A stretch of DNA of 41,957 nucleotides from Rhodopseudomonas sp. (lineage in GTDB: Bacteria; Pseudomonadota; Alphaproteobacteria; Rhizobiales; Xanthobacteraceae). This document shows, in pieces, positions 23,670 to 29,914 of the stretch. Every line of letters starts with the position of its first letter. Within the stretch, counting starts at the first letter, position 1. The notes under the pieces were generated by a model. That model was not told the origin of the DNA, did no database searches, and saw only the letters and a program-made list of their open reading frames with translations. The translations under genes were made by a program, and so were the position numbers. The DNA is taken from contig WGNB01000025.1 of the NCBI GenBank assembly GCA_016124795.1, forward strand, positions 1 to 41,957. The letters are read 5' to 3'.

Positions 23670-24938
23670 ATGAGCGAGCCCACCGGGACGCGGCCCTTTG
23701 CTCCGTTCGAATGGATGTTGTCGCTGCGCTACCTGCGGGCGCGGCGCAAGGAAGGCTTTATCTCGGTCATCGCCGGGTTTTCGTTCCTGGGCATCGTGCT
23801 CGGCGTCGCCACGCTGATCATCGTCATGGCGGTGATGAACGGTTTCCGCGCCGAGTTGCTCGACAAGATCCTCGGTCTGAACGGCCATCTGCTGATCCAG
23901 CCGCTGGAGAAGCCGCTGACCGACTGGGATGAGGTCGCGACCCGCGTTTCGGCGGTCAAAGGCGTGAAGCTGGCGGCGCCGATCGTCGAGGGACAGGCGC
24001 TGGCCTCGTCGCCCTTCAACGCCGGCGGCGTGCTGGTGCGCGGCATCCGGCTCAAGGACCTCGAGGGCCTGCCGTCGATCGTCAACAACATCAAGCAGGG
24101 CACGCTCGCCGGATTCGACGAGGGGCAGGGCGTCGCCATCGGCCGAAGGCTCGCCGACCAGTTGTCGCTGCGCGCCGGCGACAACATCACGCTGGTCGCG
24201 CCACGCGGCGCGGTGACGCCGATGGGGACGACGCCGCGCATCAAGGTCTACAAGATCGCCGCGGTCTTCGAGATCGGTATGTCGGAATATGACAGCGCCA
24301 TGGTGTTCATGCCGCTGAAGGAGGCGCAGGCCTATTTCAATCGCGCCGGCGACGTCACCGCCATCGAGGTCTATACCGACAATCCGGACTTGGTCGACCA
24401 GTACCGCAAGGATATTCAGGCTGCCGCCAAACGCCCGATTTTCATGGTGGACTGGCGTCAGCGCAACGCGACCTTCTTCAATGCGCTTCAGGTCGAACGC
24501 AACGTGATGTTCCTGATCCTGACGCTGATCGTGCTGGTGGCGGCGCTCAACATCGTCTCGGGCCTGATCATGCTGGTGAAGGACAAGGGGCAGGACATCG
24601 CCATTCTGCGCACCATGGGGGCGACGCAAGGTTCGATCATGCGCGTGTTCCTGATTACCGGTGCGGCGATCGGTGTGGTCGGCACCTTGTTCGGCTTTTT
24701 GCTCGGCGTCGTGGTCTGCCTCAATATCGAGAGCATCCGGCAGTTCCTGTCCTGGTTGACCAGCACCGATCTGTTTCCGCCGACGCTGTACTTCCTGTCG
24801 CATTTGCCGGCGCAAATGGACACCGGCGAGACGACGGCCGTGGTACTGATGGCGCTGGTTCTGTCGCTTCTGGCGACGCTCTATCCGTCCTGGCGCGCGG
24901 CGCGCCTCGATCCGGTGGAGGCGTTGCGCTATGAATGA
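23670..24938 (+). CDS. lolC: Lipoprotein-releasing ABC transporter permease (LolC/E family)
   Basis: This inner-membrane permease of the LolCDE system extracts outer-membrane lipoproteins and passes them to LolA. The 422-residue product has an N-terminal helix (about 32-58), a large periplasmic domain, and three C-terminal helices (about 275-300, 320-350, 385-408). These regions and the end [15 protein letters not shown] are typical. A single LolC/E-type protein is usual in alphaproteobacteria. The last 8 bp overlap lolD (ATGAATGA). A six-codon frame at 23653 ends across the lolC start as ATGA. Confidence 0.92.
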
Positions 24939-25662
24939 GATGGCCGTCGGCATGGATGGACCGGTCGGGCAGGCCGATCAGGAAATCCCGATTCTGTTCC
25001 TGCACGAGGTGGAGCGCACCTACCGGCAGGGCGAGGCGGCGCTCAACATTCTCAACGGCGCGGAGCTTGCGCTCTGGCCCGGACAATCGGTCGCGCTGGT
25101 GGCGCCGTCGGGTGCCGGCAAATCGACCCTGCTGCATGTCGCCGGCCTGCTGGAGCATCCGGATCACGGCGACGTCTATATCGACGGCCGTTCGACCGCG
25201 ATCCTGCCGGATCACGAGCGGACCCGCATTCGCCGCAACGAGATCGGCTTCGTCTACCAGTCACACCATCTGCTGCCTGAATTCTCCGCCCTGGAGAATG
25301 TCGTCCTGCCGCAGCTGATCCGCGGTCTGGGCCGACGTGAGGCGAAGAAGCGGGCGATCGAACTGCTGGATTATCTCGGACTGCATAACCGGATCGATCA
25401 CCGGCCGGCCGAACTGTCGGGCGGCGAACAGCAGCGCGTCGCGATTGCCCGCGCGGTCGCCAATGCGCCGCGCATCCTGCTGGCCGACGAGCCGACTGGT
25501 AACCTCGACATCAAGACCGCCGATCATGTATTCGCGGCCTTCACCCAGCTGGTGCGCGCTTCGGGCCTCGCCACCATCATCGCGACCCACAACATGGAAA
25601 TCGCCGACCGGATGGACCGTCGCGTGACGATCCAGGACGGCCTCGTGATCGAGCTCGACTGA
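24931..25662 (+). CDS. lolD: Lipoprotein-releasing ABC transporter ATP-binding protein
   Basis: This cytoplasmic ATPase powers the LolC/E permease encoded just before it. The 243-residue product shows Walker A as APSGAGKST (about residues 53-61), the Q-loop in VYQSHHLL, the signature LSGGEQQR (about 158-165), Walker B with [12 protein letters not shown], and the switch histidine in IIATHN. The ATG lies inside the lolC end, so synthesis of the two partners is coupled. MNEM is the likely start. Confidence 0.95.
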
Positions 25663-25726
25663 GAGCGCTGTTCGTCCGCATGGCCCGTAACGCCGGCGGA
25701 TGCGGGTCGATTCTCTTAAGTAGTTG

Positions 25727-25738
25727 AATTATATAATT
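25727..25738. repeat. AT-rich 12-bp palindrome
   Basis: AATTATATAATT is a perfect palindrome inside a longer A/T tract (25724-25746, arms GAATTA / TAATTC), striking in a GC-rich genome. It contains a perfect TATAAT (25732-25737), which could be a -10 element, though no good -35 stands 16-18 bp upstream. It could also be a regulator site or an easily melted region. Confidence 0.4.
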
Positions 25739-25815
25739 TAATTCTTTCGCCATGCGTCGGCGAGTGTCCGCTGAGCGTCGCGAGATTGTCGATCTCTCCC
25801 TGTTGACGAAAGCGC

Positions 25816-25845
25816 TTGACATTAGAACAAACGACGAACTATGTT
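25816..25845 (+). promoter_or_regulatory. Sigma-70 type promoter with overlapping LexA boxes
   Basis: A perfect -35 TTGACA (25816-25821) is followed after 18 bp by TATGTT (25840-25845), four of six matches to the -10 consensus. Both LexA boxes cover the spacer and the -10 region, so bound LexA should block polymerase directly. Confidence 0.65.
25825..25839 (-). promoter_or_regulatory. LexA (SOS) box 1, GAAC-N7-GAAC
   Basis: GAAC AAACGAC GAAC is the reverse-strand form of the alphaproteobacterial SOS box GTTC-N7-GTTC, matching all eight fixed bases. It sits in the promoter spacer of the small membrane-peptide gene. Confidence 0.75.
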
Positions 25846-25857
25846 CTCATTCTGTTC
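25843..25857 (+). promoter_or_regulatory. LexA (SOS) box 2, GTTC-N7-GTTC
   Basis: GTTC TCATTCT GTTC matches the alphaproteobacterial LexA consensus exactly, in the opposite orientation to box 1 and only three bases from it. It overlaps the -10 element and transcription start region. Two exact boxes in 33 bp are very unlikely by chance. Confidence 0.8.
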
Positions 25858-25890
25858 TAGTGGTCTTTTTAGTGGTCTTGGGAGGGATTG

Positions 25891-25989
25891 ATGATCAAAG
25901 CCGTCGTTCAAGAAGCCGCCACACTCGCCGCCCTGTCGATGTTCGTCGGCATGCTCGCCATCTGGACGCAGGTTTTCAGCAGTCTCTAG
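25891..25989 (+). CDS. 32-residue single-pass membrane peptide under SOS control
   Basis: This short frame is preceded by an excellent ribosome binding site (GGGAGGG, 25880-25886) and by a promoter with two LexA boxes. The peptide begins MIKAVVQEAATL, and residues 9-30 form one hydrophobic helix containing a Trp and a polar Thr-Gln pair. It ends VFSSL. There is no signal cleavage site, so it should stay in the inner membrane. Caulobacter SidA is a 29-residue SOS-induced membrane peptide that blocks division through FtsW. The size, topology and control are the same here, but I cannot show homology. Other options are a membrane-active toxin peptide or a regulator of an envelope enzyme. dnaE begins 475 bp downstream. 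Confidence 0.75.
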   Translation: MIKAVVQEAATLAALSMFVGMLAIWTQVFSSL

Positions 25990-26464
25990 ACCGTGTTTGC
26001 GCGGTAGCCGGGCCAGCGCCGGGTTGCAGCCATCATTTGCCACGCAGGCTTTGTCCGATGGGTCCCGTTGAACCGCGTTTGGCCTGGGTGGGTCGTTTGT
26101 CCTTGTTGCGTTGTATGTTGTGTCGCGTTGCGTGTGGCGTAACCCCGCGTATGTCATGCCCGGCCTGTCGGCGTTCCCCGACGCCCAGCCGGCATGACAA
26201 GGCGAGGCCCGGCGGAGAGCGGGCTGTCGCGAGAGAAGGCCGCAAAGGCGCGTGATTCAGGTTGAAGTTCCGGGTTGGCGGCGTCCGCCGGCCTTATGCG
26301 ATAACCCTCCCGAGAAACGGGTCAGGTGGGCGTATTCGGGTAGGGGCTGCGGGAAAGCGGGCATAGCCAGCTGTCATGCCGCCTTGACGGTGGACTTGGT
26401 GGGCTTGCGTCACCACTCTGGTTCTTCATAGCAGAATCACCAGACCGCCCGGTGCCGGATCATC
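25990..26464. other. Gene-poor spacer before dnaE
   Basis: These 475 bp hold no convincing coding sequence. They include a hairpin-forming repeat (26153-26198) and a small stem just upstream of dnaE (TCTGGT at 26417 with ACCAGA at 26439). A TTGACG at 26384 is a possible -35 for dnaE, without a clear -10. The ribosome binding site for dnaE is weak. Confidence 0.4.
26153..26198. repeat. REP-like extended hairpin element
   Basis: The outer arms GTCATGCCCGGC and GCCGGCATGAC enclose an inner stem GTCGG / CCGAC. Elements that begin GTCATGCCCGG are common intergenic repeats in Bradyrhizobium-type genomes (by recall). It could be a dispersed repeat, a 3'-end stabiliser of the SOS peptide transcript, or both. 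Confidence 0.5.
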
Positions 26465-29400
26465 ATGGCCGATCTCGATTTCGTGCACTTGCACGTCCAT
26501 TCATCCTACTCCTTGCTCGAGGGCGCTCTGCCGATCGCCCGGCTGGCGGAACTCGCCAAGACGGACAAGCAGCCGGCGCTGGCTCTGACCGACACCGACA
26601 ACATGTTCGGTGCTCTGGAATTCTCCGAAAAGATCGCCGGCTACGGCATCCAGCCGATTATCGGCTGTGCGCTCGCCATTGACTTTGGCGACAACGATAA
26701 CGGCCCGCGCAACGTCAATGTCGTGAACGAACGCCAGCGTATCGTGCTGCTCGCCGCCGACGAGGCAGGCTACCGCAGCCTGATGAAGCTCAATTCCCGC
26801 GCTTTCATGGAATCGCCGGCGAACGAACCGCCCCGGCTCAAGGTCGAATGGCTGGAAGGTGAGACGAGTGGCCTGATCGCATTGACCGGCGGTCCGGGCG
26901 GGCCGCTCGACCGGGCGATTGCCACCGGTCAAAGTCCACTCGCCGCCACCCGTCTCGACAGCCTCAAGCGCCTGTTCGGCGACCGGCTTTATGTCGAATT
27001 GCAGCGTCATGGCGAAGCCAGCGAACGCATGACCGAGAAGGTGCTGATCGATCTCGCTTACGAGCGCGAACTGCCGTTGGTCGCGACCAACGAACCTTAC
27101 TTCGCCACCACCAGGGATTATGAATCCCACGATGCGCTGATCTGCATCGCCGAAAGCCGTTACGTCGCCGATACCGAGCGCCGTCATCTAACGCCGGAAC
27201 ATCGCTACAAGACCCGGGCCGAAATGGTCGAGTTGTTCAGCGATCTGCCGGAGGCGGTCGCCTCCACCGTCGAGATTGCGCAACGTTGCGCCTACCGTCC
27301 GCGCACGCGCCAGCCGATCTTGCCGCGCTTTTCGGTCGGCGAGGGCGGCGATGCCGTCGACGAAGCGACCGAACTGCGCCAGCAGGCCGAAGCGGGGCTT
27401 ACCCGAAGGTTGGCGGCCGGCGGGCCGGCGCCCGGCTTTACCGAGCAGCAATATCGCGAGCGGCTTGAGTTCGAGCTGAACGTCATCGATAAGATGAAGT
27501 ATCCCGGCTACTTCCTGATCGTGTCGGACTTCATCAAATGGGCCAAGAGCAAGGAGATTCCGGTCGGGCCGGGCCGTGGTTCGGGCGCCGGCTCGCTGGT
27601 CGCCTATTCGCTGACCATTACCGATCTCGATCCGATCCGCTTCGGCCTGCTGTTCGAACGCTTCCTCAATCCCGAGCGTATCTCGATGCCGGACTTCGAC
27701 ATCGATTTCTGCCAGGATCGCCGCGAGGAAGTCATCCATTACGTCCAGCAGCGTTACGGCCGCGATCAGGTCGCGCAGATCATTACCTTTGGTACCTTGC
27801 AGGCGCGCGGCGTGCTGCGCGATGTCGGCCGCGTATTGCAGATGCCTTACGGCCAGGTCGACAAGCTGTGCAAAATGGTGCCGCAGAATCCGGCGGCGCC
27901 GATCACGCTGGCCAAGGCCATTGAGGACGAGCCGAAGCTGCAGGCCGAAGCCGACGCCGATCCGACCGTCAAGCGCGCCTTCACCATCGCTCAGAAGCTT
28001 GAGGGATTGACGCGCCACGCCTCGACCCATGCCGCCGGCATCGTCATCGGCGACCGGCCGCTGAACCAGCTGGTGCCGCTTTATCGCGATCCGAAGTCCG
28101 ATATGCCGGTGACCCAGTTCAACATGAAATGGGTCGAACCGGCGGGTCTGGTCAAGTTCGACTTTCTCGGTCTCAAGACGTTGACGACCTTGAAGACCGC
28201 GGTCGAACTGCTCAGGCGGCGCGGCGTCGATGTCGATCTCGGCGCGATCCCGCTCGACGACGCCAAGACCTATAAGTTGCTGGCGCGCGCGGAAGCGGTC
28301 GGCGTGTTCCAGTTGGAAAGCGCCGGCATGCGACGCGCGCTGATCGACATGCAGCCCGACCGTTTCGAGGACATCATCGCGCTGGTCGCGCTCTATCGTC
28401 CGGGCCCGATGGCCAACATCCCGACCTATTGCGCGCGCAAGCACGGCCTCGAAGTGCCGGACTACATTCACCCCAAACTGGAGCCGGTGCTGAAGGAAAC
28501 CTTCGGCGTTATCGTCTACCAGGAGCAGGTGATGCAGGCAGCGCAGTTGCTCGCCGGCTACTCGCTCGGCGACGCCGACCTTCTGCGCCGCGCCATGGGC
28601 AAGAAGATCCGCGCCGAAATGCAGAAGCAGGGCTCGATCTTCGTCGAGGGCTGCGCCAAGAACGGCATCGAGAAGGCGCAGGCCGAGGCGATCTTCGAAT
28701 TGCTCGAACGCTTCGCCGATTACGGCTTCAACAAATCGCACGCCGCGGCTTACGCGCTGGTCGCCTATCAGACCGCCTACATGAAGGCGAATTATCCGGT
28801 CGAGTTCCTGGCCGCGTCGATGACGCTGGATATGGGCAACACCGACAAGCTGTCCGAATTCCGCGCCGAGGCCGAACGCCTCGGCATCAAGATCGAGCCG
28901 CCATCGATCAATCGATCCAATGTCGATTTTGAAGTCGACGGCAATACGATCATCTACGCGCTGGCCGCGCTCAAGGGCGTCGGCAAGGAAGCGGTCAAGT
29001 CGATCGTCGCTTCGCGCGCCGATGGACCTTTCACCGATCTCGCCGACTTCTCGGCGCGGATCAATCCGCGCGCCGTCAACAAGCGGGTGCTCGAGAGCCT
29101 GACCCAGGCCGGCGCTTTCGATGCTTTCGACGTCAACCGTGCGCGGGTGCTCGGCGCGGTCGACATGGTGATGGGGCGCGCTCAGCATAGTCATGAGACG
29201 GCGGCGGTAGGCCAGAGCGAATTGTTTGGCGGGTCGGGCAAGCCGGACCCGATCCTGCTGCCGAATGTCGATCCCTGGCTGCCGACCGAGAAGCTGAAGC
29301 GCGAATATGATTCCATCGGCTTCTTCCTGTCCGGCCATCCGCTCGACGATTATGCGGCGGTGCTGAAAAAGCTGCGCGTGCAGTCCTGGGCGGATTTTGC

Positions 29401-29914
29401 CCGCGCGGTGAAAAACGGCCAGACCGCGGGGAAGGTGGCCGGCACCGTGGTCTCGCGGCAGGAGAAACGCACCAAGACCGGCAACAAAATGGGGATATTC
29501 GGGCTGTCCGATCCGACCGGCCATTATGAAGCGATCATTTTTTCCGAGGGGCTGGCCGAGTATCGTGACCTTCTGGAGCCGGGCACGGTCGTGCTGCTGG
29601 TCCTGTCGGCCGAAGTGCAGGGCGACGAAGTTCGCGCTCGCATTCAGTCGGTCGAGCCGCTCGACCGCGCCGCCGCCAATCTGCAGAAGGGTTTGCGGGT
29701 CTTCCTCCGCGATGGCGCGCCGCTCGATGGCGTCGCCAAGCGTCTGGAGCCGTCACCGAAAAAAGTCAGCGGCGACGGCGAGGTCAGCGTGGTGCTGATG
29801 CTGCGCCAGGGCACCGAGGTCGAGGTGAAGCTGCCGGGCCGCTTCAAGGTGTCGCCGCAGATTGCCGGCGCCATCAAGGCCGTGCCGGGCGTGGTGCAGG
29901 TCGAGGCCTTGTAG
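26465..29914 (+). CDS. dnaE: DNA polymerase III alpha subunit, replicative form
   Basis: This catalytic subunit of the replicative polymerase has 1149 residues. The N-terminal PHP domain opens with FVHLHVHSSYSLLEG (residues 6-20). The polymerase palm carries catalytic aspartates in MPDFDIDFCQDRREE (about 409-423) and GPGRGSGAGSLVAYSLTITD (about 367-386). Helix-hairpin-helix and C-terminal OB domains follow. The N-terminus and length fit DnaE1 rather than the error-prone DnaE2. It stands downstream of the SOS peptide gene but is separated from it by 475 bp, and it ends at a strong terminator. Confidence 0.96.
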   Translation: MADLDFVHLHVHSSYSLLEGALPIARLAELAKTDKQPALALTDTDNMFGALEFSEKIAGYGIQPIIGCALAIDFGDNDNGPRNVNVVNERQRIVLLAADEAGYRSLMKLNSRAFMESPANEPPRLKVEWLEGETSGLIALTGGPGGPLDRAIATGQSPLAATRLDSLKRLFGDRLYVELQRHGEASERMTEKVLIDLAYERELPLVATNEPYFATTRDYESHDALICIAESRYVADTERRHLTPEHRYKTRAEMVELFSDLPEAVASTVEIAQRCAYRPRTRQPILPRFSVGEGGDAVDEATELRQQAEAGLTRRLAAGGPAPGFTEQQYRERLEFELNVIDKMKYPGYFLIVSDFIKWAKSKEIPVGPGRGSGAGSLVAYSLTITDLDPIRFGLLFERFLNPERISMPDFDIDFCQDRREEVIHYVQQRYGRDQVAQIITFGTLQARGVLRDVGRVLQMPYGQVDKLCKMVPQNPAAPITLAKAIEDEPKLQAEADADPTVKRAFTIAQKLEGLTRHASTHAAGIVIGDRPLNQLVPLYRDPKSDMPVTQFNMKWVEPAGLVKFDFLGLKTLTTLKTAVELLRRRGVDVDLGAIPLDDAKTYKLLARAEAVGVFQLESAGMRRALIDMQPDRFEDIIALVALYRPGPMANIPTYCARKHGLEVPDYIHPKLEPVLKETFGVIVYQEQVMQAAQLLAGYSLGDADLLRRAMGKKIRAEMQKQGSIFVEGCAKNGIEKAQAEAIFELLERFADYGFNKSHAAAYALVAYQTAYMKANYPVEFLAASMTLDMGNTDKLSEFRAEAERLGIKIEPPSINRSNVDFEVDGNTIIYALAALKGVGKEAVKSIVASRADGPFTDLADFSARINPRAVNKRVLESLTQAGAFDAFDVNRARVLGAVDMVMGRAQHSHETAAVGQSELFGGSGKPDPILLPNVDPWLPTEKLKREYDSIGFFLSGHPLDDYAAVLKKLRVQSWADFARAVKNGQTAGKVAGTVVSRQEKRTKTGNKMGIFGLSDPTGHYEAIIFSEGLAEYRDLLEPGTVVLLVLSAEVQGDEVRARIQSVEPLDRAAANLQKGLRVFLRDGAPLDGVAKRLEPSPKKVSGDGEVSVVLMLRQGTEVEVKLPGRFKVSPQIAGAIKAVPGVVQVEAL

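Follow-up and report, generated by a model that had tools for sequence, protein, structure and literature searches.

In Caulobacter, SidA is a peptide of 29 residues that is induced in the SOS response and binds FtsW (PMC4211646). Deletion of its gene relieves the filamentation of a lexA mutant (PMC12700426). The box type known for Caulobacter LexA is the direct repeat GTTCN7GTTC (PMC12700426, PMC4211646), and about 97% of the Caulobacter SOS promoters carry one box (PMC12700426). DidA of Caulobacter is also a small, damage-induced division inhibitor with a single transmembrane segment, but it comprises 71 residues and is SOS-independent (PMC4211646). YneA, SosA, ChiZ and DivS of Gram-positive bacteria are small membrane proteins, too, which the SOS response induces and which block division (PMC13396833). 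They come from other phyla, YneA has a LysM domain (PMC13396833), and they are likened to the peptide of this report by description. No description of sidA orthologs outside Caulobacter was found in the literature searched; the 2011 SidA paper, which is not part of that literature, may discuss homologs.

The gene described here lies in a stretch of 41,957 nucleotides from Rhodopseudomonas sp., referred to as the window. This sidA-type gene spans 25891–25989 of the forward strand, from the ATG at 25891 to the TAG at 25987–25989, and encodes the 32-residue peptide MIKAVVQEAATLAALSMFVGMLAIWTQVFSSL, a predicted single-helix membrane peptide. Its slot is bounded on the same strand by lolD upstream (24931–25662) and by dnaE downstream (26465–29914), the gene of the replicative polymerase III alpha subunit (PF07733 over its cut-off). 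The best model for lolD is LolD TIGR02211, whose 249 bits are below the cut-off of 308. The lolC/E permease that precedes it (23670–24938) is above its own cut-off (lolCE TIGR02212, 502 bits, cut-off 362), so the name lolD follows from the best-matching model and the neighbouring gene.

A promoter scan located the -35 element TTGACA at 25816–25821 and the -10 element TATGTT at 25840–25845, both on the forward strand. TTGACA-18-TATGTT is the only promoter-like site in 25650–26480, a region that on shuffling contains 0.4 such sites on average. LexA box 1, GAACAAACGACGAAC (GAACN7GAAC, 25825–25839, forward strand), is located inside the spacer of the promoter. LexA box 2, GTTCTCATTCTGTTC (GTTCN7GTTC, 25843–25857, listed on the forward strand), is opposed to box 1 and lies over the -10 element and the probable transcription start. 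The two boxes are separated by TAT (25840–25842), and the -10 element is made up of this 3-bp gap and the GTT that begins box 2. Thus, the spacer is covered by one LexA site, and the -10 element and the start by the second. The ribosome binding site GGGAGGG follows at 25880–25886 (forward strand). Two exact opposed LexA boxes, a perfect TTGACA, a GGGAGGG site and a 32-codon frame had been described in an earlier note on this DNA, and each of them is present at the position given there. No Rfam match was found in 25600–26520.

The leader contains a tandem duplication of 12 nt (25855–25878, forward strand), which makes the distance from the boxes to the ATG longer than in relatives. The boxes are found at -66 and -48 in the window and at -46 and -28 in the nearest relatives, i.e. 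the ATG is about 20 nt farther away.

One exact LexA box alone is uninformative, because the counts in the 5.14-Mb genome are at chance level (63 and 61 exact single boxes versus 54 and 65 for the reversed control pattern). What is informative is the pairing of the boxes and the conservation of this arrangement. The motif fits the organism since its lexA carries a box of its own, GAACACATATCGAAC, about 150 nt 5' of its ATG, which served as positive control. The palindromic GAACN7GTTC was also searched in the genome and was rejected as the wrong motif for Alphaproteobacteria.

A protein search of 100 genomes, the own genome included, gave matches in 54 genomes at E ≤ 1. The window peptide was matched in 35 of 42 genomes of the same genus and in 12 of 17 other genomes of the same family; the weakest of these 47 matches has an E-value of 2.8e-4. 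The best-scoring 30 of the 54 matches (the own locus and 29 others) were compared. All 30 loci have a frame of 32 codons and GGAG just 5' of the start codon. Both exact opposed boxes, 3 bp apart, are found in 27 of the 30, always with TAT as the gap, and TTGAC is present in 26 of these 27 promoters (24 at one place, two one base later). Among the three exceptions, one locus (L034) has the identical layout with one box at 7/8, one (L017) has Ns in the box region and one (L028) has 37 bases upstream, which contain one exact box. The gene next to the frame is dnaE in 29 of these best 30 loci and the contig ends in the remaining one; lolD was found upstream in 22. The gap between the stop codon and dnaE ranges from 122 to 601 bp across the 30 loci and is 476 bp in the window. 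For the 30 distinct coding sequences, the Nei-Gojobori method gives a mean pS of 0.56 and a mean pN of 0.13 (ratio 0.23), with pN below pS in all 435 pairs. The entropies of the three codon positions are 0.56, 0.11 and 1.05, the third position being the most variable. The 32-codon frame is a real conserved gene. The conserved short frame with LexA boxes that the earlier note had proposed to look for in relatives is present there, and the comparison of synonymous with non-synonymous change, also proposed, speaks for the peptide in every pair.

Four Caulobacter sp. genomes were reached with an S-layer protein as query, and their dnaE loci were read. In all four, one exact box and two LexA-like boxes at 7/8 lie some 150–200 bp before dnaE and are followed, after a GGAGG, by an ORF of 29 residues that precedes dnaE. 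The three distinct peptides score 73–74 bits with the curated SidA model of NCBI (NF033228 div_inhib_SidA, cut-off 35) and are thus SidA by this model. In one Caulobacter sp. locus (L178), lolD is found upstream of sidA. The divergent neighbour in two loci (L180 and L181), which begins with or contains MRLIIDTDTAGDDVF, is presumably a nucleoside hydrolase. A divergent ORF beside the sidA slot accords with CCNA_02005, a nucleoside hydrolase gene (PMC3667746), next to CCNA_02004, which is sidA (PMC10769358). The family f103 (L214, L215 and L218) appears to be the Caulobacter family, as its gene content and its scores with the SidA model suggest. L214 is above the cut-off of the SidA model with 44 bits and displays the order lolD, box, sidA, dnaE explicitly. 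L215 and L218 are below the cut-off (18–24 bits); in both, two boxes lie 3 bp from each other and dnaE adjoins. The slot of sidA is thus that of the window gene. The window gene is the positional ortholog of Caulobacter sidA by virtue of the common lolD-dnaE slot. The term 'SidA-like', used earlier for the window peptide, therefore means more than resemblance: sidA itself is found in the same slot before dnaE, after lolD (L178, L214) and behind LexA boxes.

The LexA boxes of Caulobacter sidA, one exact and two 7/8, stand in a row, and those of L215 and L218 have the same orientation. Extra LexA boxes on the sidA-type gene may be the rule.

The window peptide and SidA share the lolD-dnaE slot, LexA boxes with a Shine-Dalgarno sequence directly 3' of them, one short hydrophobic helix and an R/Q-E-x9-F core. 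The window peptide is three residues longer (32 versus 29), carries close to its C-terminal end a Trp that is absent from SidA, and lacks the FVW motif. Its promoter has two opposed boxes around the -10 element, whereas an exact box and two 7/8 boxes follow one another at Caulobacter sidA.

The link between the two at the level of amino-acid sequence was examined with single peptides and with families. No Pfam model matched the window peptide, and NF033228 gave no match in searches at E ≤ 10 and E ≤ 1, so that its curated cut-off of 35 bits is not reached. Searches with NCBIfam and PHROGs gave nothing or chance-level matches (Rv2732c family, E 0.028; phrog_7793, E 0.48), which were discarded. 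Against a SidA-only profile, the score of the window peptide alone is reached by 73 of 200 shuffles. Alignment by hhalign of 17 order peptides (peptides from the order of the window) with six Caulobacteraceae SidA sequences gave a Prob of 58.6 and an E-value of 9.5e-5 over 24 ungapped columns. The order profile scores 13.1–14.1 on five Caulobacteraceae SidA; these scores were reached by 2–18 of 1000 shuffles and by 0–1 of 216 membrane-like (TM) windows. In the reverse test, 31 order peptides as a group beat membrane windows with the SidA profile (Mann-Whitney p 2e-12, a value that overstates independence because the 31 peptides are related; one of the SidA rows lacked two residues). A core [KRQE][DE]x9F occurs in 19 of the 23 slot peptides from the order, in 6 of 6 SidA and in 3 of 12 others; its P values are post hoc, as it was first spotted by visual inspection of data that overlap with those counted. 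For this count, over-long starts were trimmed to an inner ATG (f1, f20, f16b, f37; f1 appears to include Bradyrhizobium-like genomes) and one of three f84 rows was omitted. Trp25 is present in all 31 order peptides; SidA has no equivalent residue at this position, and some other order slot peptides lack it. Taken together, these comparisons suggest a family-level relationship to SidA that is weak but significant. What ties the gene to SidA is its slot, its regulation and its family taken together, and not the score of the window peptide by itself.

With a profile built from 16 peptides, 397 genomes of the window's order, probably the rhizobial Hyphomicrobiales, were searched, and 207 gave matches at E ≤ 1, many of which are probably noise. 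Forty-nine of these order loci were read, namely 29 from the search (L035–L063) and 20 weaker ones (L094–L113) picked by hand with short frames favoured. All 49 adjoin dnaE and encode peptides of 27–38 residues; in this partly hand-picked set, 44 of the 49 carry one or more exact LexA boxes in the 150 bases upstream. The opposed pair of boxes 3 bp apart is common in the family of the window, whereas other families have one box, or two that are wider apart or in the same direction. As sequence search fails at distance, the interval before dnaE was also read directly. The slot census of the order covered 49 loci from 45 families, out of 110 genomes in which dnaE was found; 41 loci represent one per family and eight, several of them known hits, were added later. 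An exact box within 900 bp of dnaE was found in 24 of the 49 loci, and a box together with a ribosome site and a hydrophobic ORF of 22–60 residues in 23 (21 families). Leaving aside the eight added loci, box and ORF occur in 17 of 41. Eleven permuted control motifs gave boxes in 0–2 loci and ORFs in none.

The class census comprised 60 of 374 dnaE loci, for the most part single representatives of families in the upper portion of the list. Here, an exact box within 700 bp and a hydrophobic ORF were sought and, unlike in the order census, a ribosome site was not required. Exact boxes were found in 17 of the 60 loci and box with ORF in 11, compared with 0–2 and 0, respectively, for the 11 control motifs. 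Four loci belong to the window's order and supply three of the 11 hits; the other eight, out of 56 loci, are from six families, with three of these eight hits in the family f84. Allowing one mismatch weakened the contrast and gave 27 loci, 14 of them with ORF (controls: 10–25 loci, 0–4 with ORF). One locus (L161) had 130 bases upstream, and some printed frames do not have the best start. Another one (L118) was boxed with an ORF when first read, but fell below the hydropathy cut in this census. Box and ORF are absent from 26 of the 49 order slots and from 49 of the 60 class slots.

Two families outside the order, f59 and f117, score clearly with the order profile, and L158, an extra class locus under the one-mismatch boxes, has an obvious relative. 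The slot peptides of f84, f155, f149, f97 and f153 and of one f42 locus have no significant similarity to the order profile and were counted as slot genes only. A profile search of the class with the alignment of 16 peptides matched 128 of 387 genomes at E ≤ 1. These matches were read as chance, because the best one outside two genomes of the own family has an E-value of 0.011 and lies within a long frame. The class-wide gene is seen by its slot and is missed by sequence search alone. The SidA model behaves likewise: it matches 135 of the 387 class genomes at E ≤ 1 and exceeds its cut-off in one. In the order, by contrast, the slot gene is common, so the earlier expectation that relatives would be widely missed holds for family models. 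Among 14 control genomes the model exceeded its cut-off in one, presumably Caulobacter vibrioides. Its very small size and, outside the [E/D]-x9-F core, its rapid change probably explain why such models largely fail to see the gene.

Three f84 loci (L133, L170 and L172) have a boxed slot peptide of the type MSKRNYLKNGFEFVVFASVLATLVFWSEIVHSFTG, in which no similarity to either SidA or the window family was detected; it is either a product of extreme drift or a replacement in place. Even an order genome as small as 1.4 Mb (L246, family f4) has a boxed slot peptide, MNLFNISKIYLKDFVALSSMLVFFIMLVKWSEILLSF, before dnaE.

The window peptide is predicted to form a single helix (residues 2–31, mean pLDDT 94) with a hydrophobic core (KD19 1.69), and a membrane location is predicted. 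The hydrophobic moment is 0.12, i.e. the helix is not amphipathic. Among the 31 order peptides, Phe18 and Trp25 are invariant, and conservation is concentrated on one face of the helix (P 0.00055). In the predicted helix, such one-sided conservation suggests packing on a partner in the membrane.

DNA damage leads to RecA-driven cleavage of LexA, an established pathway. The layout of the promoter suggests that LexA, bound to the two opposed boxes over the spacer and over the -10 element and start, would keep it shut. Cleavage of LexA would free the promoter and the 32-residue peptide would be made. Most likely it would insert into the inner membrane as one helix, as the prediction implies, in an orientation that is itself conjectural. 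Its conserved face (Ala10, Ala14, Phe18, Met21, Trp25) may then dock on a membrane protein of the divisome, which by comparison with SidA would most likely be FtsW. As in Caulobacter, the docked peptide might hold septal wall synthesis until repair is done. By analogy, the window gene is probably a divergent SidA-type SOS division inhibitor that acts on the septal wall machinery, with FtsW as the first candidate.

The same slot gene could, under the same SOS control, inhibit division through FtsN, FtsI or FtsB/L in place of FtsW. The sequence has drifted far from SidA and includes a Trp that is invariant in the 31 order peptides, and in Caulobacter the targets of SidA and DidA are FtsW or FtsN (PMC13396833). 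On the other hand, YneA acts on FtsW, and models place ChiZ, SosA and SidA on FtsW as well, although their authors call these models not high-confidence (PMC13396833). Going by YneA and these models, such peptides are known or proposed to act on FtsW more often than on any other protein, and a different divisome target is unlikely, if still worth some weight. TisB and DinQ of Escherichia coli are likewise short SOS-induced membrane peptides. TisB is a toxin controlled by an antisense RNA. DinQ is an SOS-linked toxic peptide with a single transmembrane segment and is also controlled by an antisense RNA (PMC3567139). A toxin of this type, which would depolarise the inner membrane and slow growth, would fit the size, hydrophobicity and SOS control of the window peptide. 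However, no antisense RNA signal is seen at the window gene, as the minus strand has no promoter-like site in 25650–26480 (a weak test, in which sigma-70-like sites were scanned). Moreover, relatives have short leaders, the hydrophobic moment is low, the one-face conservation suggests a protein partner and the slot is that of SidA, all of which makes a membrane toxin improbable.

The constant position before dnaE (29 of the best 30 of 54 matches, 49 of 49 order loci read) might point to a leader ORF that regulates dnaE, SOS induction serving to adjust polymerase III. In Sinorhizobium meliloti, the translated short frame sORF25, supported by ribosome profiling, lies in the 5'-UTR of dnaE1 and is possibly regulatory in the view of its authors (PMC10117765). 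By position it is a candidate ortholog and may be the sidA-type gene of S. meliloti. Regulation of dnaE would leave the strong constraint on the amino-acid sequence, as for a membrane helix, unaccounted for; the gap to dnaE varies widely (122 to 601 bp, 476 bp here), and Caulobacter sidA in that slot is a known division inhibitor. The leader reading is thus highly improbable. A mere coincidence of a chance frame with chance boxes agrees with the chance-level number of single exact boxes in the genome, but not with the conservation of frame, boxes and spacing, nor with the exact-box slot hits, which are zero for each of the 11 control motifs. The conservation of the frame, the pN/pS ratio and the order slot census refute coincidence in our view, and its probability is negligible.

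On balance, we favour the view that sidA is an old alphaproteobacterial SOS division brake fixed beside dnaE and not a speciality of Caulobacter; it would be a membrane peptide of about 25–50 residues with a LexA-boxed promoter in the lolD-dnaE interval. Besides the Caulobacter group, the spread consists of 17 of the 41 unselected order families and six class families elsewhere. If this is true, the gene would be the alphaproteobacterial counterpart of SulA, and the brake, so far familiar chiefly from a single bacterium, may be widespread. With the fixed slot, the LexA box and the short helix, a candidate checkpoint gene could be named in many sequenced Alphaproteobacteria. The variation from family to family around the conserved core motif would show what the peptide needs to hold its divisome target.

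A second DnaE homolog is encoded in the own genome on the minus strand (C1:18463–22621); some 3 kb upstream of it lies an exact LexA box (C1:22607). The homolog is probably dnaE2, and the box is placed as expected for an SOS-controlled imuAB-dnaE2 operon.
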